Assembly (NCBI RefSeq): GCF_001591405.1
Contig: NZ_BCUV01000005.1
Span: 1-64,000, forward strand
Source: Janibacter terrae NBRC 107853
GTDB taxonomy: Bacteria; Actinomycetota; Actinomycetes; Actinomycetales; Dermatophilaceae
Reading direction: 5' to 3'
Length of the DNA stretch: 64,000 nt
In this document: piece after piece, positions 8,622 to 57,826 of the stretch
Layout: every line of letters begins with the position of its first letter
Position numbering within the stretch: position 1 is the first letter of the stretch
Notes under the pieces: model-generated
The model's database searches: none
Told to the model about the DNA's origin: nothing
The model's input: the letters and a program-made list of their open reading frames with translations, nothing else
Program-made: the position numbers and the translations under genes

Positions 8622-9431
8622 GTGGCGATCCTCATCACCGACCCGACCGACGAGCGACTGCGGGACTTCGCCGGGCTCACCGACGTCAAGCTGCGGCGCG
8701 TCCTCGAGCCCGAGGGCGGGCTCTACCTCGCCGAGAGCGAGAAGGTCATCCGTCGGGCCCTGGCCGCCGGCCACCGGCCGCGGGCGCTGCTCATGGGGGA
8801 GCGCTGGCTCACCGACCTCGCTGACGTCGTCGAGCAGGCCGAGGCGGACGGCGTGCCGGTCTACACCGGGACGGCCGAGGTCATCGAGGGCATCACCGGG
8901 TACAACCTGCACCGCGGGGCGCTGGCCTCGATGCACCGGCCGGAGCTCCCTTCGCTCGCCGAGGTCCTCGACGGGGCCCGCCGGGTGCTCGTCATCGAGG
9001 ACGTCGTCGACCACACCAACGTCGGCGCGATCTTCCGCTCCGCCGCCGCGCTCGGGACCGACGCGGTCCTCGTCACCCGCCGGTGCGCGGACCCGCTGTA
9101 CCGCAGGGCGATCCGGGTCTCGATGGGGACGGTCTTCCAGGTGCCGTGGACCCGCGTCGAGCCGTGGCCCGCGGGGATCGAGGACCTGCGTGCCGCCGGG
9201 TTCACGGTCGCGGCGCTGGCCCTGGCGGACGATGCCGTGGGGCTCGACGAGCTCGCCGCCGACGCTCCCGAGCGGCTCGCCCTCGTCCTCGGGACCGAGG
9301 GGGACGGGCTGGCCCGTCGCACTCTCGGCCGCGTGGACGTCACGGTCACCATCCCGATGGCCGGTGGGGTGGACTCGCTGAACGTCGCGGCGGCCGGTGC
9401 CGTCGCGGCGTGGGAGCTGCGGGTGCGCTGA
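8622..9431 (+). CDS. SpoU/TrmH family RNA 2'-O-methyltransferase
   Basis: This 269-residue SPOUT-class enzyme should methylate a ribose 2'-OH in rRNA or tRNA using SAM. The three conserved SpoU motifs are present: NVGAIFRSAAALG, LVLGTEGDGL and IPMAGGVDSLNVAAA, the last forming the C-terminal trefoil-knot cofactor site. An N-terminal substrate-binding domain of about 100 residues precedes the catalytic part, as in TsnR/RlmB-like proteins. The exact target nucleotide cannot be decided. The GTG start is supported by TAGCCT upstream. Only 6 bp separate it from the convergent PEBP gene. Confidence 0.92.
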   Translation: MAILITDPTDERLRDFAGLTDVKLRRVLEPEGGLYLAESEKVIRRALAAGHRPRALLMGERWLTDLADVVEQAEADGVPVYTGTAEVIEGITGYNLHRGALASMHRPELPSLAEVLDGARRVLVIEDVVDHTNVGAIFRSAAALGTDAVLVTRRCADPLYRRAIRVSMGTVFQVPWTRVEPWPAGIEDLRAAGFTVAALALADDAVGLDELAADAPERLALVLGTEGDGLARRTLGRVDVTVTIPMAGGVDSLNVAAAGAVAAWELRVR

Positions 9432-26193: not shown

Positions 26194-27087
26194 TCACCCC
26201 GCGGTCCTCGCCTGCTCCCGGATCCAGTCGCTGGCCGAGCGCGGCGTGATGCCCCGCTCGCGGAGCGGGCCGTCGTCCCACGTCACCGGCAGGAGGTCCT
26301 GCATCAACCCGGTGCCGAGGATCGTCGCCATCGCGGGGCTGGGACGGTCCAGCAGTCGCATGCCGAGGCGTGCCACGGCGCGCGGCATCCGCTGGACCTT
26401 CATCTTCTTCCCGGTCGCCTGCTCGGCGATGGCGATCGCCTCGTTGCGGCTGATCGCCTCGGGCCCTCCGAAGGTGATGGTGTCCGGCGGATCCACCTCC
26501 ACGGCGACGGCCGCCACGAGGGCTGCGACGTCGTCCGTGGCGACCCACCGGCGTTTGGTGTCACCCTTCCCGAACACGGACACCTTGCCGTCATGGATGT
26601 CGAAGCGCCCGATGGGCGCAAGGTGGATGTCCTGGAATGCATCCGGCCTCACGACGACCCGCCGTATCGGGGAGCGGGCGAGCCGCCTCTCGGTGGCGGT
26701 CTTCGCGCGCTCCAGAGGCGTGCCCAGGTCCGCGTCCGCACCGGCGTACGAGACGTAGACGAACCTCTCGACGCCAGCGTTCTCTGCGGCCTCGACCAGC
26801 GACGCCATCCCGAGCTCGTCCGCTTCGTGGATGCTGGGATGCTTGCTGCCCGCGAGCACCCTGGCGATGGCGGTGGCCGACGCCACCACGGTGTGCACCC
26901 CCTCGCACGCCACCGCGAGGCTCGCGGGATCGGCGAGGTCCCCGCGGACGACGTCGGCGCCCCACTCACGAAGTCGCGGCGCCTCGGTGCCCGGACGGAC
27001 CAGGCACCGGACCGGATGGTCACCCTCACGCAGCCGCTGGACGACGCGGCTCCCCAGCTCTCCTGACGCACCAACCACGAGGATCAT
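26194..27087 (-). CDS. NmrA-like NAD(P)-binding protein
   Basis: This 297-residue atypical short-chain dehydrogenase has the N-terminal dinucleotide motif VVGASGELGSRV (4-15), then RPGTEAPRL and GDLADPASL. FVYVSYAGAD replaces the usual YxxxK active site, so it may be a redox sensor or isomerase rather than a classical reductase. The C-terminus has the GGPEAISRNE substrate-binding segment common in NmrA/HSCARG-like proteins. A GAAGGGAG Shine-Dalgarno precedes the ATG at 27087. Confidence 0.85.
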   Translation of the reverse strand: MILVVGASGELGSRVVQRLREGDHPVRCLVRPGTEAPRLREWGADVVRGDLADPASLAVACEGVHTVVASATAIARVLAGSKHPSIHEADELGMASLVEAAENAGVERFVYVSYAGADADLGTPLERAKTATERRLARSPIRRVVVRPDAFQDIHLAPIGRFDIHDGKVSVFGKGDTKRRWVATDDVAALVAAVAVEVDPPDTITFGGPEAISRNEAIAIAEQATGKKMKVQRMPRAVARLGMRLLDRPSPAMATILGTGLMQDLLPVTWDDGPLRERGITPRSASDWIREQARTAG

Positions 27088-27248
27088 CGCCGAACTCCCT
27101 TCGAGCCGGGCACCGGGTAGAGGTCCGACCTTCCATCATCCTCGGGCACCCGCCGGAGGGCAACGGTGGCAGGTCAGGCAGGCACGAACCGGCCACCGCA
27201 TACTGGGTGCGGATGGTCGCAAGCCGCTGTGAGGAGAACATCCTGAAC

Positions 27249-27970
27249 ATGTCCGATTCGACACTCCCGTCAGGCCAGCAGGCCGGCGGCCCGCCACGCA
27301 CCCCGACGGCCGTCCTGTGGGACATGGACGGCACCCTCGTCGACACCGAGCCCTACTGGATGCTCGCCGAGCACGAGCTCGTCGAGGAGTTCGGCGGGAC
27401 GTGGACCCACGAGCTGGGGCTGCAGCTCGTCGGCAACCCGCTGCTCGTGTCCGCGCAGTTCATCCTCGACAACTCGCCGGTCGACCTGCCGGCCGAGGAG
27501 GTCGTGCTGCGCCTGCAGTCGCGCGTCGTCGACCAGATCGCGGCGGCGGTGCCGTGGCGACCCGGCGCGCGAGAGCTGCTCGCCGCCTGTCGTGCGGAGG
27601 GCGTGCCCTGCGCCCTGGTGACGATGTCCTGGACCGACCTCGCGCGAGCCGTCGTCGACGCGACCGAGCCGGGGTCCTTCGCGGTGGTGGTGACGGGCGA
27701 CCTGGTGACGCACGGCAAGCCGCACCCGGAGCCCTACGAGAGGGCCCTGCGCGAGCTCGGGGTCGAGGCCGCCGGCTGCGTGGCCCTCGAGGACTCGCCG
27801 ACCGGCGTCCGCTCGGCGGTCGCCGCCGGCGTCTCCACGCTCGCCATCCCGCACCACGTCGAGATCCCCGAGATCCCGGGGGCCGTGCCGGTGCCGGGAC
27901 TGGCCGGGGTCACCCCCTTCGACCTGCTGCCGCTCGCGCGCCTCGCGACGCCGGCCGAACCCGCATTCCC

Positions 27971-27974
<4 letters not shown>
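27249..27974 (+). CDS. HAD family hydrolase (beta-phosphoglucomutase/GS1-like phosphatase)
   Basis: This 241-residue HAD hydrolase has motif I WDMDGTLVDTE (about 24-34), motif II VTMSW, motif III KPHPEPY and motif IV LEDSPTGVRSA, with a helical cap of about 70 residues between I and II. It probably dephosphorylates sugar phosphates or related small metabolites. A GAGGAG ribosome site lies upstream of the ATG at 27249. Its last codons (PAFP-stop) are written by the palindrome GCATTCCCCTAGGGCAATGC, which also ends the convergent nuclease gene. Confidence 0.88.
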
Positions 27975-34728
<6,754 letters not shown>

Positions 34729-44838: not shown

Positions 44839-45225
44839 ATGCCGTTCGACCCCAGCACCACCAAGCCCGAGATCGACTTCCCGGAGGGCGCCGCGCCCAC
44901 CGAGCTGGTCGTCGAGGACATCACCGTCGGTGACGGCGCCGAGGTGACCGCCGGGTCGCCCATCCAGGCCCACTACGTCGGTGTCGCCCACTCCACCGGC
45001 GAGGAGTTCGACGCCTCGTGGAACCGTGGCGCCCCGCTCGCGTTCACCGCGGGCATCGGCCAGGTCATCCAGGGCTGGGACCAGGGCCTGCTCGGCATGA
45101 AGGAGGGTGGTCGTCGCAAGATCACCATCCCGCCGCACCTCGGCTACGGCGACCGTGGCGCCGGCGCGGCCATCAAGGGCGGCGAGACCCTGATCTTCGT
45201 CGTCGACCTCGTCCAGGTCGGCTGA
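44839..45225 (+). CDS. FKBP-type peptidyl-prolyl isomerase, short form
   Basis: This 128-residue single-domain FKBP has all expected pocket elements: HYVGVAHSTGEEFDASWNRG, VIQGWDQGLLGMKEGGRRK and LGYGDRGAG. There is no signal peptide, so it is cytoplasmic. A strong AAGGAG ribosome site precedes the ATG. It is followed by a 42-bp hairpin containing the CCCTAGGG palindrome. Confidence 0.93.
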   Translation: MPFDPSTTKPEIDFPEGAAPTELVVEDITVGDGAEVTAGSPIQAHYVGVAHSTGEEFDASWNRGAPLAFTAGIGQVIQGWDQGLLGMKEGGRRKITIPPHLGYGDRGAGAAIKGGETLIFVVDLVQVG

Positions 45226-45244
45226 CCTCCCCTTCGCCCGTACG

Positions 45245-45286
45245 CACCTGAAGCCGCATTGCCCTAGGGGAATGCGGCTTCAGGTG
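45245..45286. terminator. Hairpin containing palindrome copy 2, after the short FKBP gene
   Basis: Arms CACCTGAAGCCGCATT and AATGCGGCTTCAGGTG flank the core GCCCTAGGGG, so the 20-bp palindrome (45256-45275) is extended to a 42-bp hairpin with one mismatched pair. It lies between two convergent genes and probably terminates both transcripts. Confidence 0.75.
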
Positions 45287-45287
45287 T

Positions 45288-45307
45288 GCATTGCCCTAGG
45301 GCAATGC
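45288..45307. repeat. CCCTAGGG palindrome, copy 3, carrying the DUF3866 stop codon
   Basis: GCATTGCCCTAGGGCAATGC is a perfect 20-bp palindrome, 12 bp after copy 2. On the minus strand its centre supplies the TAG stop of the DUF3866 gene (45296-45298), and the gene ends ALP-stop, just as the RecB-like gene does at copy 1. Confidence 0.85.
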
Positions 45308-46399
45308 AGCGAGGTGGGCCGCATGGCGGCCGGCCAGAGCTGCGGTGAGGAAGGGCGTCACGTCCTCCGCCGCGGCCCTGCCCATGCTCACCAGCGGCAC
45401 GGGGGAGACCACGAGGTCCTCGGCGACACCGGTGGTCGGGAGCGTGATGACACGCGGGGAGCCCGCGGCCGTCGCGACGGCGGCGTCGACCTGCTCGCGC
45501 ACCTGCGGCCAGGGCGTCTCGGTGGACTCGGGCAGGACGACGTCGGCCGCCCCGAGGAGCGCGCGCGAGAGGACCGTCGCCGTGTGGTGCGACAGCCCCC
45601 GGTGCCGCGCCCGTGGGTCGCTGCCGGAGACGCGCGGTACCGCGATGCCGTGCCCGCGCAGGACGTGGACGGCGTTGAGCACGTCACCGGAGGACAGCCC
45701 GGACCAGCCCCACGTCGTCGACGACCCGGCATTGCCCGGACCCTGCGCCACGACGGCCACGTCGCAGCCGAGCACGTGGCGGGCGGCGAGCAGCGCGGAG
45801 TGCACGGTGATCGCCTCGTGCTCGGCGCCGAAGGCCTGACCCGCCGAGATCGTCGTGGCGAGCCAGCCGGCGTCGACGAGCCGGGCGACGCTGTCGGACA
45901 GGGCGAAGGGGAGGGCCGCCGAGTCGGTCATGACGTATGCGACGCGCGCCCCCGGCGCCGCGGCCCGGATCCCGGCGAGCACCGCGGGGAGGGCGGAGTG
46001 CAGCTCGGCGACGACCACCGGCATCCCCTGCAGGTCGCCGTCGGCGATCGCCGGGTGGTCGCGCATCGCCTCGTGGTGCGGCGACTCCTGCTCCTCGAGC
46101 GCGAGGACCATGTCCTGCAGCGGCGTGTAGCGGGCCTTGACGATGTGCCCGGGCGCGTCGTCGGGATCGGCGGGCGGGCGGGTGGCGTCGGCGACGACGA
46201 GGGCGAGACCGCCGGTGCCGAGGCCGCGGCGCAGGGCCGACACGTTGAGCAGGACCGTGTCGCCGACCTCGGGGGTCCCGACGAGCCCGGTGAGGGCGAG
46301 CGCGGGGGTGTCGCTCCCGTCGACCTCCACGCGCAGGCCGGCCGCCCCGGGGCGGGAGCCGGTGACCTCGCGGACGGTGCCGCTGCGCCAGTGGATCAT
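45296..46399 (-). CDS. DUF3866 family protein
   Basis: A 367-residue protein of the actinobacterial DUF3866 family starts MIHWRSGTVREVTG. A small beta-barrel-like N-terminal domain is followed by an alpha/beta domain with SALPAVLAGI, YVMTDSAALPFALSD and VAQGPGNAGSSTTWGWSG. No catalytic motif is recognised. The gene lies between the FKBP and pafBC genes, a conserved neighbourhood. The ATG at 46399 has TAACCT 7 nt upstream. The stop codon is inside palindrome copy 3. Confidence 0.85.
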   Translation of the reverse strand: MIHWRSGTVREVTGSRPGAAGLRVEVDGSDTPALALTGLVGTPEVGDTVLLNVSALRRGLGTGGLALVVADATRPPADPDDAPGHIVKARYTPLQDMVLALEEQESPHHEAMRDHPAIADGDLQGMPVVVAELHSALPAVLAGIRAAAPGARVAYVMTDSAALPFALSDSVARLVDAGWLATTISAGQAFGAEHEAITVHSALLAARHVLGCDVAVVAQGPGNAGSSTTWGWSGLSSGDVLNAVHVLRGHGIAVPRVSGSDPRARHRGLSHHTATVLSRALLGAADVVLPESTETPWPQVREQVDAAVATAAGSPRVITLPTTGVAEDLVVSPVPLVSMGRAAAEDVTPFLTAALAGRHAAHLAALP

Positions 46400-46406
46400 G
46401 TGCGGC

Positions 46407-46412
46407 AGGTTA
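46407..46412 (-). promoter_or_regulatory. -10 hexamer TAACCT for the DUF3866 gene
   Basis: On the minus strand TAACCT lies 7 nt before the ATG at 46399. Confidence 0.5.
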
Positions 46413-46437
46413 GCCTCAGCGTGACGAAGGGAGCGAT

Positions 46438-47427
46438 GTGGCAGCACCCAACACCCCCGCCGCGAAGACCGAGCGGTTGCTCAACTTGACGATGAGCCTG
46501 CTCTCCGCGCGGATCCCCGTGCCCAAGCAGCGGATCCGCACGATGGTCGAGGCCTACCACCTGGTCGAATCGGACGAGGCCTTCGACCGGATGTTCGAGC
46601 GCGACAAGGAGGACCTGCGCGCCATGGGCATCCCCCTCGTCACCGAGGACATCGGGATCTTCGAGGACGAGCAGGGCTACCGCATCGACCAGCGCGAGTA
46701 CGCGCTGCCGCCCGTCGAGCTCGCCGCCGACGAGCGCGCCGTCGTCGGGCTCGCCAGCCGTGCGTGGGCGCACGCCGCGATGGCCGGCACCGCCGCGACC
46801 GCCTGGCGCAAGGTCGCCGCGGACGACGAGGTGGGGGAGGACCCCTTCGCCGGTCTGGAACCACGCCTGGGCGGCGCCGAGCCCGCCTTCGAGCCGCTGA
46901 AGGACGCCGTGCTCGCCTCCGTGCGGGTGCGCTTCGACTATGCCCGACCCGGCGCCGACGGCGCGCAGACCCGCCACGTCGAGCCCTGGTACCTCACGGC
47001 CTGGCACGGTCGCTGGTACCTCGTCGGCCACGACCTGGACCGCGAGGCGCCGCGCGTCTTCCGCCTCTCCCGGATCGCGTCGGCGGTCACGACGACCCGC
47101 GAGGCCGTCACCGGTGAGATCCCCGAGGACGTCGACCCGGTCCGCATGATCGCCGCCGTCGACGGTGACGCGCCGCAGCCGAGCGAGTCCGTGCTCCGCG
47201 TCCGCGTCGATGCCGGCCACGGGCTGCGGCGACGGGCCACGTCGGTCGAGTCGATCGACGAGCAGTGGGACCGCGTGGTCGTCGACCACGGGGGCACCGG
47301 CGCCTTCGCCGGCGAGATCGCCAGCCACGGCGCCGACGTCGTCGTCGAGGGTCCGGCGGAGCTGCGGGAGGCGGTCGTCGCCCGGCTGCGGTCGGTGCTC
47401 GAGACGCACGAAGGGAGTCCCCGATGA
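46438..47427 (+). CDS. pafB: WYL-domain transcriptional regulator PafB
   Basis: This 329-residue regulator has an N-terminal winged helix (about 10-80, with FERDKEDLRAMGIPL) and a WYL domain (about 150-230, with VEPWYLTAWHGRWYLVGHD). A C-terminal WCX domain follows. With PafC it forms the activator of LexA-independent DNA-damage genes in actinobacteria. The GTG start at 46438 has a GAAGGGAG Shine-Dalgarno. It overlaps pafC by ATGA. Its position directly after the proteasome genes is conserved. Confidence 0.94.
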   Translation: MAAPNTPAAKTERLLNLTMSLLSARIPVPKQRIRTMVEAYHLVESDEAFDRMFERDKEDLRAMGIPLVTEDIGIFEDEQGYRIDQREYALPPVELAADERAVVGLASRAWAHAAMAGTAATAWRKVAADDEVGEDPFAGLEPRLGGAEPAFEPLKDAVLASVRVRFDYARPGADGAQTRHVEPWYLTAWHGRWYLVGHDLDREAPRVFRLSRIASAVTTTREAVTGEIPEDVDPVRMIAAVDGDAPQPSESVLRVRVDAGHGLRRRATSVESIDEQWDRVVVDHGGTGAFAGEIASHGADVVVEGPAELREAVVARLRSVLETHEGSPR

Positions 47428-48386
47428 GTCGTCCCACCGTCGAGTCCGCGACGAGTCGGGTGCAGCGCCTGCTGACGATGGTCCCGTGGCTCGTGGGCCG
47501 TCAGGGCATCGAGATCGACGAGGCCGCTGCCGGGCTCGGGATCACCGAGCAGCAGCTCGTCGCCGACCTGGAGCTGCTCTTCGTCTGCGGCTACGGGCAG
47601 ATGCCCGACGAGCTGATCGAGGTCAGCTACGAGGGCGGCCGGGTCTTCGTCACCAACGCGGACGCGATCGCGCGCCCCCTGCGGCTGACCGTCGACGAGG
47701 CCATCGCCCTCACCGTCGGCCTGCGCTCGCTCGCCGCGAGCGGGGCGGGGGAGAGCAGCGCCGTGGAGCGCGCCCTCGCCAAGCTCGAGGGCGCGACCGG
47801 GACGATCCCCGGCGTCGAGCGCGTGGTGGTCGTCGAGGACGACACCGACACCGGGCGGACGACGGCCGCGCTGCGCGACGCCCTGTCCTCCGGGCGCCGG
47901 GTGCACCTGACCTACCACGTGCCGAGCCGCGACGAGCGCACCGAGCGTGATGTCGACCCGATGCGCCTGGCCCACGTCGAGGGCCACTGGTACCTCGAGG
48001 GCTGGTGCCACCGGGCGCAGGACGTGCGCCTCTTCCGCGTGGACCGCATCGAGGCGGTCGACGTGCTCGACGAGGCCGCCGAGCCACCGGACGGCGTGGC
48101 CGCCCGTGACCTCAGCGCGGGTGCGTACCAGCGCAGCGAGGACGACGTCCCGGTGAGGCTGCGGCTGCGCCCGTCCGCCCACTGGATCGCGGAGTACTAC
48201 CCGGTGACATCTCGGCAAACGGCCGGCGAAGACCTGGTCGTCACCCTGCCGACCGGCGACGAGGGATTCCTGCGCCGTCTCGTGCTGCGGCAGGGCGCCG
48301 ACGTCGAGATCCTCGAGCCGGCGGCCCAACGCGCCGATGTCGCGGGTGCCGCGGCGGCTGCGCTCACCGCCTACGGTGCTGCCTGA
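47424..48386 (+). CDS. pafC: WYL-domain transcriptional regulator PafC
   Basis: This 320-residue partner of PafB has an N-terminal winged helix (about 10-75), a WYL domain with MRLAHVEGHWYLEGWCHR (about 173-190) and a C-terminal WCX domain. The two are paralogues that work as one heteromer. It is co-translated with pafB. A 65-bp gap separates it from tatA. Confidence 0.94.
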   Translation: MSRPTVESATSRVQRLLTMVPWLVGRQGIEIDEAAAGLGITEQQLVADLELLFVCGYGQMPDELIEVSYEGGRVFVTNADAIARPLRLTVDEAIALTVGLRSLAASGAGESSAVERALAKLEGATGTIPGVERVVVVEDDTDTGRTTAALRDALSSGRRVHLTYHVPSRDERTERDVDPMRLAHVEGHWYLEGWCHRAQDVRLFRVDRIEAVDVLDEAAEPPDGVAARDLSAGAYQRSEDDVPVRLRLRPSAHWIAEYYPVTSRQTAGEDLVVTLPTGDEGFLRRLVLRQGADVEILEPAAQRADVAGAAAAALTAYGAA

Positions 48387-48451
48387 AGACGACCGGCGCA
48401 CCCAGCACCGGGTCGTACACTGACGACGTACACGCGACGAAAGGCACTGCC

Positions 48452-48721
48452 ATGCCCAGCCTGGGTCCCATGGAAATCATCCTCATCCTGCTCGTCATCC
48501 TCCTGCTCTTCGGGTTCAAGAAGCTGCCGGACGCCGCGCGCAGCGTCGGCAAGTCCGCCCGCGTCTTCAAGGCCGAGGTCAACGAGATGAAGGAAGAGGA
48601 CCGGCAGCGCGAAGAGGCCAAGAAGTCGCGGCCGGCTGACACCACGCCCACCGCCGACGGCAACGCCGTCATCGACGAGGCCAAGCCGCGGACGGACAAC
48701 CAGTCCGGCCCGGTCGCCTGA
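48452..48721 (+). CDS. tatA: Twin-arginine translocase subunit TatA
   Basis: This 89-residue protein has an N-terminal membrane helix (GPMEIILILLVILLLFG) followed by the FGFKKLPD hinge and an amphipathic helix (ARSVGKSARVFKAEV), then a charged tail. It forms the pore of the Tat system with TatC next door. A GAAAGG ribosome site precedes the ATG. The gamma-glutamyltransferase at 12230 is a likely substrate. Confidence 0.95.
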   Translation: MPSLGPMEIILILLVILLLFGFKKLPDAARSVGKSARVFKAEVNEMKEEDRQREEAKKSRPADTTPTADGNAVIDEAKPRTDNQSGPVA

Positions 48722-48747
48722 GTCACACCCCCTTCGCCCCCTCACGC

Positions 48748-49605
48748 ATGGCCCGTCGCCCCCACACGCCCAAGGATCCCGAAGGGCGGATGCCGCTCAA
48801 GGAGCACCTGCTCGAGTTCCGCAACCGGCTGATGATCGCCGCTGCCGCGATCGTCGTCGGCGCGATCGTCGGCTGGATCATCTACAACCCGGTGCACATC
48901 GGGGCGTGGACGTACGGGGGCATCTACAAGCAGCTGACCTACCCCTTCGACGAGTACAAGGCCTCGAACCCCGACAGCGTCGTCACGCTGAACTTCGGCA
49001 ACGCGACCTCGGCCTTCACGACGCAGCTCGGCCTGTCGATCTTCACCGGCGTGCTCATCTCGAGCCCCGTGTGGGTCTGGCAGATCTGGGCCTTCATCCT
49101 GCCCGGCCTGACCCGGCGCGAGCGCCGCATGTCGATCGGCATCTTCGCCACGGCGCTGCCGCTCTTCCTCGCGGGCTGCTTCTTCGCCTACCAGACGCTG
49201 CCCAAGGCGCTGCTCATCCTCTTCGGGTTCACGCCCGACGACAACAAGTCGAGCAACATCCAGCAGGCGAGCGACTACTTCACCTTCATCACCCGCTTCA
49301 TCCTCGCCTTCGGCCTGGCGTGGCTGCTCCCGGTCTTCCTCGTCGGGCTGTGCGCGCTCGGCGTGCTGTCGGGCAGGACCCTGAAGAAGTCGTGGCGGAT
49401 GGCGATCCTGCTGATCTTCATCGCGTCCGCGGTCATCACGCCGACACCCGACCCGTTCACGATGTTCCTGCTCGCCGGCCCGCTCTGCGCGCTGTACTTC
49501 ATCGCCCTCGCGATCTGCCTGGTCATCGACCGTCGCCGGGTCGCGGCGGGCGAGGAGCCCGACTGGTCCGACCTCCCGGACGACCAGGCCTCGCCGCTCA
49601 CCTAG
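48748..49605 (+). CDS. tatC: Twin-arginine translocase subunit TatC
   Basis: This 285-residue receptor subunit has six membrane helices. It starts with PLKEHLLEFRNRL, the signal-recognition glutamate region. PVWVWQIWAFILPGLTRRERR, SDYFTFITRFILAFGLAW and TPTPDPFTMFLLAGPL are family signatures. It binds twin-arginine signal peptides. Its TAG stop starts the TAGTCT hexamer of the next gene. Confidence 0.96.
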   Translation: MARRPHTPKDPEGRMPLKEHLLEFRNRLMIAAAAIVVGAIVGWIIYNPVHIGAWTYGGIYKQLTYPFDEYKASNPDSVVTLNFGNATSAFTTQLGLSIFTGVLISSPVWVWQIWAFILPGLTRRERRMSIGIFATALPLFLAGCFFAYQTLPKALLILFGFTPDDNKSSNIQQASDYFTFITRFILAFGLAWLLPVFLVGLCALGVLSGRTLKKSWRMAILLIFIASAVITPTPDPFTMFLLAGPLCALYFIALAICLVIDRRRVAAGEEPDWSDLPDDQASPLT

Positions 49606-49608
49606 TCT
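49603..49608 (+). promoter_or_regulatory. -10 hexamer TAGTCT for the lipid kinase gene, made from the tatC stop codon
   Basis: TAGTCT ends 6 nt before the ATG at 49615. Its TAG is the stop codon of tatC. Confidence 0.6.
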
Positions 49609-49614
49609 CGACGC

Positions 49615-50520
49615 ATGCACCGCGTCACCGCCGACCGCATCGGCCTGCTCGTCAACCCCACGGCGGGACGGCACCGGGGCCAGCAGGTCGGCACACGCGT
49701 GGCCGACCTCCTCGAGGCCGCCGGCCGTGAGGTCATCGACCTGACCGGTCTGGACGCCGCCCGGGCGGAGGCCAAGGCCCGCGCGGCCATCGAGGGCGGG
49801 GACATCGACCTGCTCGTCGTCGCCGGCGGCGACGGGGCCGCGGGCCTCGGGGCCAACCTCTGCGCCGACACCGACGTCCCCCTCGGCGTGGTCGCCGTGG
49901 GGACCGGCAACGACAACGCCCGCGAGCTCGGTCTGCCGGTCCACGACGTCGCGGCCTCCGTCGAGCGCATCCTCACCGGCGGCACCCGCCGCATCGACCT
50001 CGGCCGCGTCACCACCACCGGCGGCGAGCACGTGCGCGACTTCCTCGGCGTCCTCTCCTGCGGGTTCGACGCGGTGGTCAACGAGCGCGCCAACCGGATG
50101 GTCTGGCCCAGGGGACCGCAGCGCTACAACCTGGCGATCCTGCGCGAGCTGCCCGTCTTCGGGCCGATCCACTACGAGCTGACGATCGACGGCCGGGAGC
50201 GCGAGATCGACGGGATGCTCGTGTGCATCGCCAACGGCCGGGCCTTCGGGGGCGGCATGAAGGTCGCGCCCGGTGCCGACGTCGAGGACGACCTGCTCGA
50301 CGTCGTCATCGTCCACGACCTCCCGATGCACACCTTCCTGTCGGTCTTCCCCAAGGTCTTCAAGGGGACCCACACCTCCCACCCCGCGGTCGAGACCATC
50401 CGCGGCGCGCGCGTGACGCTCGCCACCGACCGCATCGTCACCTACGCCGACGGCGAGCGGGTGGCGCCGCTGCCGCTCACCGTCGAGGCGGCACCCGGCG
50501 CGCTGTCGATCGTGCGCTGA
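49615..50520 (+). CDS. Diacylglycerol kinase family lipid kinase
   Basis: This 301-residue DagK/YegS-type lipid kinase has an N-terminal Rossmann-like domain with LLVNPTAGRHRG and the nucleotide loop VVAGGDGAAG. GTGNDNAREL and the C-terminal beta-sandwich domain with ANGRAFGGGMKVAPGADVEDD follow. The usual GGDGT threonine is Ala here, which may affect phosphate binding. It probably phosphorylates diacylglycerol or a related lipid at the inner membrane face. Confidence 0.9.
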   Translation: MHRVTADRIGLLVNPTAGRHRGQQVGTRVADLLEAAGREVIDLTGLDAARAEAKARAAIEGGDIDLLVVAGGDGAAGLGANLCADTDVPLGVVAVGTGNDNARELGLPVHDVAASVERILTGGTRRIDLGRVTTTGGEHVRDFLGVLSCGFDAVVNERANRMVWPRGPQRYNLAILRELPVFGPIHYELTIDGREREIDGMLVCIANGRAFGGGMKVAPGADVEDDLLDVVIVHDLPMHTFLSVFPKVFKGTHTSHPAVETIRGARVTLATDRIVTYADGERVAPLPLTVEAAPGALSIVR

Positions 50521-50530
50521 GCCGCTGGCA

Positions 50531-50536
50531 TAGCGT
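50531..50536 (+). promoter_or_regulatory. -10 hexamer TAGCGT for the helicase gene
   Basis: TAGCGT ends 6 nt before the ATG at 50543. Confidence 0.55.
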
Positions 50537-50542
50537 GGGCAC

Positions 50543-53308
50543 ATGTCCACGCCCGCTCCCGAGCTCACCGCCTTCACCGCCTCGCAGGACTTCGACCTCG
50601 ACCCCTTCCAGATCGAGGCCTGCGCCGCGGTCGAGGCCGGGCACGGGGTCCTCGTCGCGGCGCCGACCGGTGCCGGCAAGACGATCGTGGGCGAGTTCGC
50701 CGTGCACCTGGCCCTGCAACGCTGCCAGAAGGCCTTCTACACCACCCCGATCAAGGCCCTGAGCAACCAGAAGTACCACGAGCTCGTCGCCACCCACGGC
50801 GCCGACGACGTCGGTCTGCTGACGGGCGACATCTCCGTCAACGGCGAGGCGCCGGTCGTCGTCATGACGACCGAGGTCCTGCGCAACATGATCTACGCGG
50901 GCTCCTCGACGCTCGACACCCTCGCCTTCGTCGTCATGGACGAGGTGCACTACCTCGCGGACCGGTTCCGCGGAGCGGTGTGGGAGGAGGTCATCATCCA
51001 CCTGCCGCGCTCGGTCCAGGTCGTCTCGCTCTCGGCGACCGTGAGCAACGCCGAGGAGTTCGGTGCCTGGTTGGCCGAGGTGCGCGGCGGGACCGAGGTG
51101 ATCGTCTCGGAGGTCCGCCCCGTGCCGCTGTGGCAGCACATGCAGGTCGGCCGCGATGTCCACGACCTCTTCGTCGACGACGGCCGGCACGACGACTCGC
51201 CGGCCAAGGTCAACCCGCAGCTGCTCGACGCCATCCGGGCGCGCACCCGCGGCCTCGGGGACGAAGGGGACTTCCGCGGCGGTGGTCGAGGGGGCCGGGA
51301 CCGCCGTGGTCGTGGCCGACCCGGTCCGCGCGGAGGAGGCGGTCAGGGGTCACGCGGCGGGGGATCCCGCTTCGGCGGCGCGGCCTCGCGCACCGAGGTC
51401 ATCCAGGGGCTCGACCGCGACGGTCTGCTCCCGGCGATCACCTTCATCTTCAGCCGCGCGGGGTGCGACGGCGCCGTCGGCCAGATGCTCGCCGGCGGGG
51501 TGCGACTCATCCCCGAGCGCGACGGCGAGCGCAACCGCCGCACGGTCGAGGAGCGCGCCGCGGTGCTCGAGGGCGAGGACCTGGACGTGCTGGGGTACCA
51601 CCAGTTCGTCGAGGGCATCTCCCGCGGCTTCGCGGCCCACCACGCGGGCATGCTCCCGCTCTTCCGCGAGATCGTGGAGGAGCTGTTCACCACCGGGCGC
51701 ATCCGCGCGGTCTTCGCGACGGAGACGCTCGCGCTGGGCATCAACATGCCCGCGCGCACCGTCGTGCTCGAGAAGCTGGTGAAGTTCAACGGCGAGTCCC
51801 ACGTGGAGATCACCCCCGCGGAGTACACCCAGCTCACCGGTCGCGCCGGCCGGCGCGGCATCGACGTCGAGGGCCACGCGCTCGTCGTGTGGTCGCGCGG
51901 GATGGACCCGATGGCGGTGGCGGGCCTGGCGCAGACCCGGACCTACCCCCTTCGCTCCAGCTTCCGGCCCACGTACAACATGGCGGTCAACCTCGTCGCC
52001 CAGGTCGGGCGCCAGACGGCACGCGAGGTGCTCGAGACCTCCTTCGCGCAGTTCCAGGCCGACCGCTCGGTCGTCGGGCTCGCCGCGCAGGTGCGTGAGC
52101 AGCAGGAGTCGCTCGAGGCCTACGCCGAGGCGATGCATTGCCACGTCGGGGACTTCCGTGAGTACGCGGCGATCCGCCGGCGCATCACCGACCTCGAGAA
52201 GGAGGGCGCCCGCGCGCGCGGCGCCAACCGGCGCGCCGAGATCGCAGTCTCCCTCGAGGCCCTCAAGGTCGGTGACATCGTGCGCATCGGCGGTCGCAAG
52301 TCCGGCATCGCGCTCGTCATCGCCCCGCCGCGCTCGCACAAGGGGGAGCAGTCGGCGCCCACCGTGCTCACCGAGCACAAGCAGGTGCGGCGGCTCACCG
52401 TCGCCGACCTCGACCGGGTGGTGACCCCCTTCGGTCGGCTGGCGGTGCCCAAGAGCTTCAACCCGAGGTCCGCCAAGCAGCGCGCCGACCTCGCGGCGAC
52501 GCTGCGCATCAAGGCGCCGCACGAGGACGCGCCGAGCGTGCAGCGGCACGCGGCCGAGAGCGCCCGGAGCGAGGACGAGCGCCTCACCGAGCTGCGCCGT
52601 GAGCTCAAGGCCCACCCGTGCCACCAGTGCCCGGAGCGCGAGGACCATGCCCGCTGGGCCGCCCGGTGGTGGAAGCTCAAGCGGGAGAGCTCCGCCCTGC
52701 AGCGCAAGGTCGAGCAGCGGACCAACTCGGTGGCGCAGACCTTCGAGCGGATCTGCGCGGTGCTCGTCCAGCTGGGCTACCTCGGCGAGGACGGCGAGAG
52801 CGTGACCGACCTCGGCAGCCGGCTGCGGCGCCTCTACACGGAGAAGGACCTGCTCGCCGCCGAGTGCCTGCGCGGCGGCGCGTGGAAGCGCCTCGACCCC
52901 GCCGAGCTCGCCGCGGTCGTCTCGATGCTCGTCCACGAGCCCCGGCGCGACGAGCACGACCCGTTCCCGCGGATGCCCACGGACAACGTCTCGGACGCAT
53001 GGCAGGACATGGTCCGCCGGTGGAGCGAGCTGGAGGACCTCGAGGGCGCGAACGCGCTGCAGCAGACCGGCGAGCCCGACGGGGGACTGGCCTGGGCCGT
53101 GCACCGCTGGGCGAGCGGTCGGCGCCTCGACGAGGTGCTCTCGGGTTCGGACCTCACCGCCGGCGACTTCGTGCGCCGGTGCAAGCAGGTCGTCGACCTG
53201 CTCGACCAGGTCGGTGACGCCGCCCCCGAGCCGCACCTGCGCGGCGTCGCCCGCACCGCGGTCGACAAGGTGATGCGGGGCGTCGTCGCGGCCGACCGGC
53301 TGGACTGA
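50543..53308 (+). CDS. helY: Ski2-like superfamily 2 RNA/DNA helicase (HelY type)
   Basis: This 921-residue DEAD/DEAH helicase resembles actinobacterial HelY and eukaryotic Mtr4/Ski2. Motif I APTGAGKT is at 40-47, motif II DEVH near 133-136 and motif III SATVSN. The second RecA domain holds QLTGRAGRRGID (motif VI). An RGG-rich insertion (about 240-275, with RGGGRGGRDRRGRGRPGPRG) sits between the two RecA domains. The C-terminal part (from about 590) matches the DSHCT-type helical domain. Its role is presumably RNA processing. A tandem CCCTAGGG element follows the gene. Confidence 0.93.
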   Translation: MSTPAPELTAFTASQDFDLDPFQIEACAAVEAGHGVLVAAPTGAGKTIVGEFAVHLALQRCQKAFYTTPIKALSNQKYHELVATHGADDVGLLTGDISVNGEAPVVVMTTEVLRNMIYAGSSTLDTLAFVVMDEVHYLADRFRGAVWEEVIIHLPRSVQVVSLSATVSNAEEFGAWLAEVRGGTEVIVSEVRPVPLWQHMQVGRDVHDLFVDDGRHDDSPAKVNPQLLDAIRARTRGLGDEGDFRGGGRGGRDRRGRGRPGPRGGGGQGSRGGGSRFGGAASRTEVIQGLDRDGLLPAITFIFSRAGCDGAVGQMLAGGVRLIPERDGERNRRTVEERAAVLEGEDLDVLGYHQFVEGISRGFAAHHAGMLPLFREIVEELFTTGRIRAVFATETLALGINMPARTVVLEKLVKFNGESHVEITPAEYTQLTGRAGRRGIDVEGHALVVWSRGMDPMAVAGLAQTRTYPLRSSFRPTYNMAVNLVAQVGRQTAREVLETSFAQFQADRSVVGLAAQVREQQESLEAYAEAMHCHVGDFREYAAIRRRITDLEKEGARARGANRRAEIAVSLEALKVGDIVRIGGRKSGIALVIAPPRSHKGEQSAPTVLTEHKQVRRLTVADLDRVVTPFGRLAVPKSFNPRSAKQRADLAATLRIKAPHEDAPSVQRHAAESARSEDERLTELRRELKAHPCHQCPEREDHARWAARWWKLKRESSALQRKVEQRTNSVAQTFERICAVLVQLGYLGEDGESVTDLGSRLRRLYTEKDLLAAECLRGGAWKRLDPAELAAVVSMLVHEPRRDEHDPFPRMPTDNVSDAWQDMVRRWSELEDLEGANALQQTGEPDGGLAWAVHRWASGRRLDEVLSGSDLTAGDFVRRCKQVVDLLDQVGDAAPEPHLRGVARTAVDKVMRGVVAADRLD

Positions 53309-53323
53309 CCCCCCCTTCGCCCA

Positions 53324-53387
53324 ACCTGAACCCGCATTGCCCTAGGGGAATGCAGACCTGAACCCGCATTGCCCTAGGGGAATGCAG
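53324..53387. repeat. Tandem 32-bp repeat with CCCTAGGG palindrome, copies 4 and 5
   Basis: Two identical 32-bp units (53324-53355 and 53356-53387) lie head to tail. Each holds GCATTGCCCTAGGGGAATGC, at 53334-53353 and 53366-53385, flanked by ACCTGAACCC and AG. The block lies in the convergent space between the helicase and exonuclease genes. It may be a double terminator created by a tandem duplication. Confidence 0.85.
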
Positions 53388-53402
53388 AGTCAGGGGCTCG
53401 GG

Positions 53403-54347
53403 TCAGGGGGCGACGGAGCGAAGGGCGGTGCCCACCCGGTCGAAGGGTCCGGTGAGGTCGTGCTCGATGGCCATCCGGCTCATCGCGACCGGGTCGACGA
53501 TGTCCGGCGGCAGGTGCAGGTCGAGGTCCCCGACCGGCACGTCGTGCGCGACCCGGACGACGAGCGGGGCCACGTCGAGGTAGGCGGTGGCCTCCTCGAG
53601 GCGGGCGCGGCGGGCGCCCTTGATCCCGGGGTGGCCCGAGTCGACCGCGGCGCGGATGCCGGCGAGCGAGCCGTACTCCGCGATGAGTGCGGCGGCGGTC
53701 TTCTCACCGATGCCCTTGACGCCCGGCAGTCCGTCGCTGGTGTCGCCGCGCAGCGCCGCCATGTCGACGTACGCGTCGCCGCTGTCGACCCCGTACCTGG
53801 CGGCGAGGAAGGCCTGGTCGACGACATCGGGGTCGCGCACGCCACCGCGCGCCGTGTACAGGACCCGGGTGGAGGAGGCGTCGTCGACGAGCTGGAAGAG
53901 GTCCCGGTCGCCGGTGACGACGTCGACCGGCATGACCCCCCGGTGCGCCATGGCCAGGGTCCCGATGACGTCGTCGGCCTCGTAGTGGGCCGCCCCGATG
54001 CGCGGGATGCCGATGGCGGCGAGCGCCTCGACGATGAGCGGCACCTGGGGGAGCAGCTCGTCGGGCACGTCCTCGCCCTCGGTCGGGTCCTCGGCGACAC
54101 GGTGGGCCTTGTACGTCGGGATCGCGTCCACCCGCCACTGCGGGCGCCAGTCGTCGTCCCAGCAGGCGACGAGGTGGGTCGGCCGGTACCGCGTGACGAG
54201 CGTGGCGAGCATGTCGAGGAAGCCCGCGACGGCATTGGTGGGCAGCCCGGATGGACCACCGCTGCGGGCCGGCACCCCGTAGAAGGCACGGAAGTACAGC
54301 GAGGCGCTGTCGAGCAGCAGGAGCCGGGAGGACGCCGAGTCGGACAT
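53403..54347 (-). CDS. 5'-3' exonuclease (DNA polymerase I exonuclease domain-like)
   Basis: This 314-residue stand-alone FEN/Pol I-type 5' nuclease has the N-terminal LLLLDSASLYFRAFYG, then ACWDDDWRPQWR. The catalytic acids lie in YEADDVIGTLA and VTGDRDLFQLV, and the H3TH motif is GLPGVKGIGEKTAAALI. It probably removes RNA primers or flap DNA. The start at 54347 is chosen because TAAGGT lies 7 nt upstream. It is divergent from the Lrp-type gene. Confidence 0.93.
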   Translation of the reverse strand: MSDSASSRLLLLDSASLYFRAFYGVPARSGGPSGLPTNAVAGFLDMLATLVTRYRPTHLVACWDDDWRPQWRVDAIPTYKAHRVAEDPTEGEDVPDELLPQVPLIVEALAAIGIPRIGAAHYEADDVIGTLAMAHRGVMPVDVVTGDRDLFQLVDDASSTRVLYTARGGVRDPDVVDQAFLAARYGVDSGDAYVDMAALRGDTSDGLPGVKGIGEKTAAALIAEYGSLAGIRAAVDSGHPGIKGARRARLEEATAYLDVAPLVVRVAHDVPVGDLDLHLPPDIVDPVAMSRMAIEHDLTGPFDRVGTALRSVAP

Positions 54348-57783: not shown

Positions 57784-57826
57784 ACGAAGGGGGGCGCCCA
57801 CCGGATCGGTGGGCGCCCCCCTTCGT
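57784..57826. terminator. Strong bidirectional terminator between fxsA and rbpA
   Basis: A perfect 19-bp inverted repeat (57784-57802 with 57808-57826) encloses a GGATC loop in the convergent space. The arms end in ACGAAGGGGGG and CCCCCCTTCGT, so both copies of the CGAAGGGGG nonamer are built into the stem. Confidence 0.85.

Follow-up and report, generated by a model that had tools for sequence, protein, structure and literature searches.

A dispersed, probably REP-like palindrome family behind genes of Janibacter, with cores that differ between species

REPs adjoin the 3' ends of convergent or co-directional ORFs, their termini give TAG codons to ORFs, and intragenic REPs occur (excerpts of Di Nocera et al. 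2013, PMC3733652). The same excerpts mention the CGTC REPs as a superfamily without a dedicated transposase, along with untagged REP-like repeats; neither a spacing rule nor a turnover of sequence at shared junctions is described in them. As judged by title, the papers listed included none on Janibacter palindromes, on extragenic palindromes of Micrococcales or on a helical spacing of REPs or BIMEs.

ParB/Noc-type sites are also tens of near-identical palindromes dispersed on one chromosome, the Noc site being ATTTCCCGGGAAAT. The palindromes described here were met in a stretch of 64,000 nucleotides (the window) of a Janibacter genome of 3.58 Mb (G000). They form three clusters in the window, as follows.

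27213-27974, plus strand: HAD-family hydrolase gene, ending GCA TTC CCC TAG (AFP-stop) within the palindrome
27963-27982, no strand assigned: single palindrome GCATTCCCCTAGGGCAATGC, its central CTAG being the stop codons of both convergent genes
27971-28792, minus strand: PD-(D/E)XK (RecB-like) nuclease gene, ending GCA TTG CCC TAG (ALP-stop) within the palindrome
45256-45275, plus strand: palindrome GCATTGCCCTAGGGGAATGC with complementary arms of 11 bp, first of a doublet with a spacing of 32 bp
45288-45307, no strand assigned: palindrome GCATTGCCCTAGGGCAATGC, providing the TAG of the minus-strand DUF3866 gene (45296-46399)
53334-53353, plus strand: palindrome GCATTGCCCTAGGGGAATGC, in a doublet with the copy at 53366 (32 bp), no stop-codon use
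53366-53385, plus strand: second palindrome of that doublet, no stop-codon use

The sequence-only reading had described the palindrome at 27963-27982 as the stop codons of two convergent genes (HAD and RecB-like), with proteins ending in ALP or AFP where the element is entered, and had listed the four further copies. Its coordinates and the central CTAG were verified: each of the two genes enters the palindrome in the frame GCA TTS CCC TAG, and the common CTAG is read as TAG from both sides. The palindrome at 45288 is entered by the minus gene alone, whose stop lies at 45296, and those at 53334 and 53366, with a DSHCT helicase gene on one side and a 5'-3' exonuclease gene on the other, are entered by neither flanking gene. 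All five window palindromes match GCATTSCCCTAGGGSAATGC with 0 mismatches; this degenerate 20-mer is expected 0.01 ± 0.10 times per window (largest number 1 in 100 shuffles), which excludes chance as their origin.

Throughout G000 the exact palindrome was found 84 times (reversed-pattern control, 0), and tolerating up to three mismatches raised the number to 94, i.e. ten beyond the exact copies. The two halves of the exact cores are unlike in 68 of 84 cases, so that their hairpins are mismatched (G.G or C.C), while 13 cores have two G-type halves and 3 (by subtraction) two C-type halves. Mapping covered 83 of the 84 exact copies, which make up 55 clusters. The gene calls, made with a codon-usage caller of our own, lacked at least one gene (at L040), and the neighbours include low-scoring ORFs at L044, L054 and L067 and an IS transposase as one neighbouring gene at L048, L052 and L072. 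With these calls, 32 clusters lie between convergent genes, 22 lie between co-directional genes behind a stop codon, one lies within selB and none is divergent, so that the many intragenic or divergent copies that would speak against a 3'-end element are absent. Indeed, 54 of the 55 clusters are extragenic and 3' of genes, although the examined DNA is 91% coding. The earlier statement that the palindromes always stand between convergent genes holds for all three window clusters but, genome-wide, only for the 32 of 55. Twenty of the 22 co-directional clusters (L040 included, after its missed gene was found) are closer to the upstream stop than to the downstream start, L083 and L086 being the exceptions. 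The orientation of the nearest copy relative to the facing gene has a weak bias (42 minus, 26 plus, 15 and 3 symmetric). The proposal of a 3'-end module with its own stop codon was thus retained in part: the element is recurrent, dispersed and able to bring a TAG, but this TAG is used by only 10 of the 86 facing gene ends.

Another repeat of the same window, CGAAGGGGG, is present in 38 copies in the 64 kb, as against 0 for the reversed control and 0-5 in same-composition shuffles; the copies at 57785 and 57818, for example, form an inverted pair. Genome-wide it numbers 905+892 copies (about 1,800) as compared with 14+8 (22) for the reversed control, and each of 16 Janibacter genomes has 797-1860 copies, as against 13-67 in 23 other genomes of the family or order. 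It is strand-neutral and mostly genic (149/204), with a sharp drop-off upon single-base changes and a preference for G at -2. It resembles a sequence of the DNA-uptake type, here in an actinobacterium; no paper on a DNA uptake sequence of this kind in Actinobacteria was found by title.

The cores are regularly spaced wherever they are clustered. In six genomes, 106 of 110 distances between neighbouring cores were 30-32, 41-43, 62-64 or 84 bp, the first two classes being close to three or four turns of DNA, and the other four were 45, 46, 55 and 93 bp; spacings within one array are mutually dependent, those of G014 and G001 come from among the matches listed, and those of G012 from a syntenic stretch. 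The mean resultant was 0.91 at a period of 10.5 bp, with a phase near zero, and nearly as high at 10 bp (0.86) and 11 bp (0.88), so the period is not sharply fixed. One 21-bp copy of G012, which the pattern does not match, lies 35 bp from its neighbour. Doublets are mostly inverted in G006, where 23 of 42 neighbours are arranged +-, 2 are -+ and 17 point the same way. An eight-fold tandem array of GCATCTCCTTRAGGTCGTGC was seen in G012, with exact 32-bp steps and directly after a stop codon.

L118-L121 (G012), 8932-9175 of the joined, reversed stretch: GCATCTCCTTRAGGTCGTGC array

With the patterns used, the family was seen in Janibacter only, and the exact 20-mer was found in 35 stretches, 33 of Janibacter and two single loci in unrelated metagenome bins. 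Congeners bear similar 20-bp palindromes of other sequence, some of them at the same junctions. Both flanks of the HAD/RecB junction were recovered from 13 genomes; the palindromes between them are clear in 11 and degenerate in G004, and G001 has a plain hairpin only. In 10 of the 13 (not in G006, G011 and G001) the HAD gene stops at mid-palindrome, the centre being read as TAG, TAA or TGA, and the sequences of these ten palindromes, one of them degenerate, differ. The cores at this junction are CCCTAGGG in G000 and G010, CTTAAG arrays in G012 and G015, GCCTAGGC in G013 and G007, CCCCGGG mixtures in G011 and CTACGG in G006, with others besides. As for the window junctions in general, G012 has arrays of the CTTAAG/CTTGAG type at all three. 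At w53/w54 no palindromes are present in G008, G013 or G007, but they occur at two junctions in G008 and at the first in G013 and G007; in G001, from which two junctions were recovered, neither has a palindrome of this kind. We also compared ten pairs of loci between G000 and G010, three of which were dropped as not alignable at the junction. At the seven common junctions the arms, spacers and copy number differ, and the cores are alike save for the S position or, in further copies, single bases; part of this likeness follows from the choice of the loci by the exact core.

In 11 of 16 Janibacter genomes a generic core, GCANNNSCYYRRGSNNNTGC, outnumbered its reversed control by a factor of at least 2.5 (e.g. 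243 vs 29 and 223 vs 32). In a twelfth, G006, a CTAC variant is present in 100 copies, and the remaining four (G002, G003, G005 and G009) have no excess over the control. Generic-core matches never exceeded 25 in 114 other genomes of the family, and in only 7 of these were forward matches above the control, in relative terms at most 16 vs 6.

The one cluster within a gene is a pair of palindromes in selB, whose product has GTP_EFTU and SelB-wing domains; the pair is in frame, so that HSPRAMQ is encoded twice.

L082, 1527-3359, minus strand: selB with an in-frame pair of palindromes in a variable loop

This variable and apparently tolerant loop contains palindromic units, one to three long, in 9 of the 14 genomes shown (G000 included) and none evident in the other 5. 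In G000, G010 and G001 the selB unit represents a type that is common among the matches listed from that genome. Among the loci and matches listed, the units of G012 and G006 are unlike the commonest type of these genomes, and that of G012 is common to G009, so the units of one genome are not fully uniform. Comparison with L082 2474-2541, a doublet some 67 bp long whose two palindromes lie 42 bp apart with GACCGTTCGTCT in the spacer, gave dispersed matches in G000, G010 and G006 and one match each in G011, G012 and G002.

These palindromes probably constitute an untagged REP/REPIN-like dispersed family rather than a purpose-built stop-and-terminate cassette. The unit is a 20-bp core, GCA-NNN-SCYYRRGS-NNN-TGC or near it, often within a longer imperfect palindrome, and present singly or in doublets and arrays with cores at about integral numbers of DNA turns. 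The phased, regular spacing and the small number of near-miss copies suggest a protein that reads the double-stranded core sequence-specifically, and within one genome the cores would be kept alike by copying or replacement; the units would also be mobile. They may have survived mainly after stop codons, where they would be least harmful. Any ORF that enters the core in frame 1 (GCA NNN SCY TAR) takes it as its stop codon, and stop-codon supply is best read as a by-product. It is not new in kind, as REP termini already give TAG codons to ORFs in the excerpts of PMC3733652. In the broad sense the family is REP-like by its short palindrome in high copy, mostly extragenic, at 3' ends and never divergent, and its doublets with regular, often inverted spacing are as in REPINs and BIMEs. 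Arm pairing (see below), the bluntness of the phase test, the mutual dependence of array spacings, the G012 copy at 35 bp, the incomplete uniformity, the ascertainment by core and the four genomes without excess speak against the REP-like reading.

Alternatively, the palindromes could be operator sites of a sequence-specific DNA-binding protein, e.g. a ParB/Noc-like organiser or a transcription road-block, every site being selected and the specificities of site and protein co-evolving between species. We hold this to be unlikely, though it deserves some weight: near-integral-turn spacing in six genomes with different cores, the scarcity of near-misses and positions that are shared while cores change are all in its favour, and the ATTTCCC-type cores of G011 and G004 resemble the Noc site. 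Such operators are harder to reconcile with counts that range from background to more than 200 within one genus, with selB copies that vary in number and type, and with a simultaneous change of all sites, which is difficult without copying. A more specific proposal, and a doubtful one, is that 3'-end sites are shared while the palindrome is rewritten in each lineage along with a fast-changing, putative DNA-binding protein that sits on helically phased doublets. If this were true, it would be a bacterial counterpart of co-evolving site-and-reader systems, and perhaps a protein road-block that stops transcription both ways.

The sequence-only reading had favoured a bidirectional terminator module with its own stop codon, selected at the 3' ends of convergent genes, and the location of 54 of the 55 clusters agrees with it. 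So does folding: 44-mers around the cores have a mean MFE of -20.5 as compared with -15.2 at 229 other 3' ends, and the flanking arms in G000 pair within elements more than between shuffled ones (458 vs 401 ± 17 of 996; reached in 0 of 2000 permutations), which indicates that the folding of a strand matters too. In contrast, no terminator-like site with a U-tract was found at the elements in 27000-29000 or 45000-54000, i.e. at the three window clusters, and the 20 nt after the core contain a mean of 3.1 T (83 cores). Eleven sample cores folded as RNA with -14.2 to -1.5 kcal/mol, the typical cores of G012, G013 and G014 being weak (-1.5 to -5.0 kcal/mol). The lack of a U-tract site in the window and the variable folding of cores speak against selection for intrinsic termination, as do core mismatches in the 68 copies and in several congeners, the in-frame pair in selB, the small use of the TAG and the congeners without excess. 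We therefore find a selected terminator improbable; termination may be a side-effect in those copies that have long paired arms. No known RNA family accounts for the palindromes, as the window yielded only a tRNA at the gathering threshold.

A classical GTAG-tagged REP/REPIN mobilised by a RAYT (Y1 tyrosine transposase) would fit the often inverted doublets of G006, and 3' location, TAG supply and intragenic copies are REP habits in the excerpts of PMC3733652; it is nonetheless very unlikely. The Y1/RAYT transposase (PF01797) was detected in 0 of 16 Janibacter genomes and in 5 of 14 control genomes, which disfavours such mobilisation, and the tag is missing: none of 83 copies had GTAG or CTAC within 5 bp of its core, and 19 had CGTC there.

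An IS481-like element, with a 345-aa transposase containing LZ_Tnp_IS481 and rve domains, was found at the centre of palindromes in 3 of 48 fetched G000 loci, with CCTAGG on both sides.

L048, 2555-3707: IS481-like copy
L052, 2536-3688: IS481-like copy
L072, 1296-2448: IS481-like copy

The transposases of the three copies are identical, and their ORF takes its TAG from the target CCTAGG/CTAG; the excerpts of literature on IS481 and CTAG held nothing on an IS481 target site. That the palindromes are landing pads or scars of this element inserting at their centre is suggested by these copies and flanks and is hardly credible, given that only 3 of the 48 loci bear it, that the window has none and that several congener cores lack CTAG (CTTAAG, CCCGGG, CTAC), which disfavours the element as their source; we read it as a guest of the palindromes. 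A viral or plasmid origin was set aside in view of 0 exact 20-mers in viral contigs and of a 101-base selB stretch without a match in plasmids or phages.

Repeat families are usually viewed as coming and going by insertion, whereas here some positions stay and the sequence changes. This contrast is seen over 16 comparable genomes, without a detectable copy of the known REP-moving transposase. It makes testable the likeness of dispersed short palindromes within a genome and a putative protein that would read one face of the helix, and it cautions that a C-terminus beside a repeat of this sort can be encoded by the repeat itself.

Compared with known systems, the Janibacter palindromes share with intrinsic bidirectional terminators a hairpin potential between convergent genes, and differ from them by window copies without a U-tract, mismatched cores, a coding copy and a repeated core. 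They resemble ParB/Noc-type sites in size, near-identity and number (tens per chromosome), and are unlike them in their 3'-end location and doublets, the reader protein being putative. With the Rickettsia palindromic elements (RPE), as excerpts of PMC3733652 present them, they have in common in-frame palindromes in protein genes, here in the SelB loop, but 54 of the 55 clusters lie outside genes and the core measures 20 bp. The likeness to REP, BIME and REPIN, again as excerpted from PMC3733652, extends to a size of 20-40 bp, high copy number, the species-specificity of some families, dimers, 3' location, TAG supply to flanking ORFs and some intragenic copies. Unlike REPs, the Janibacter family has no Y1 gene detected in its genus, no GTAG and CGTC at only 19 of 83 copies, and it combines a near-integral helical spacing with different palindromes, according to species, at one and the same junction.
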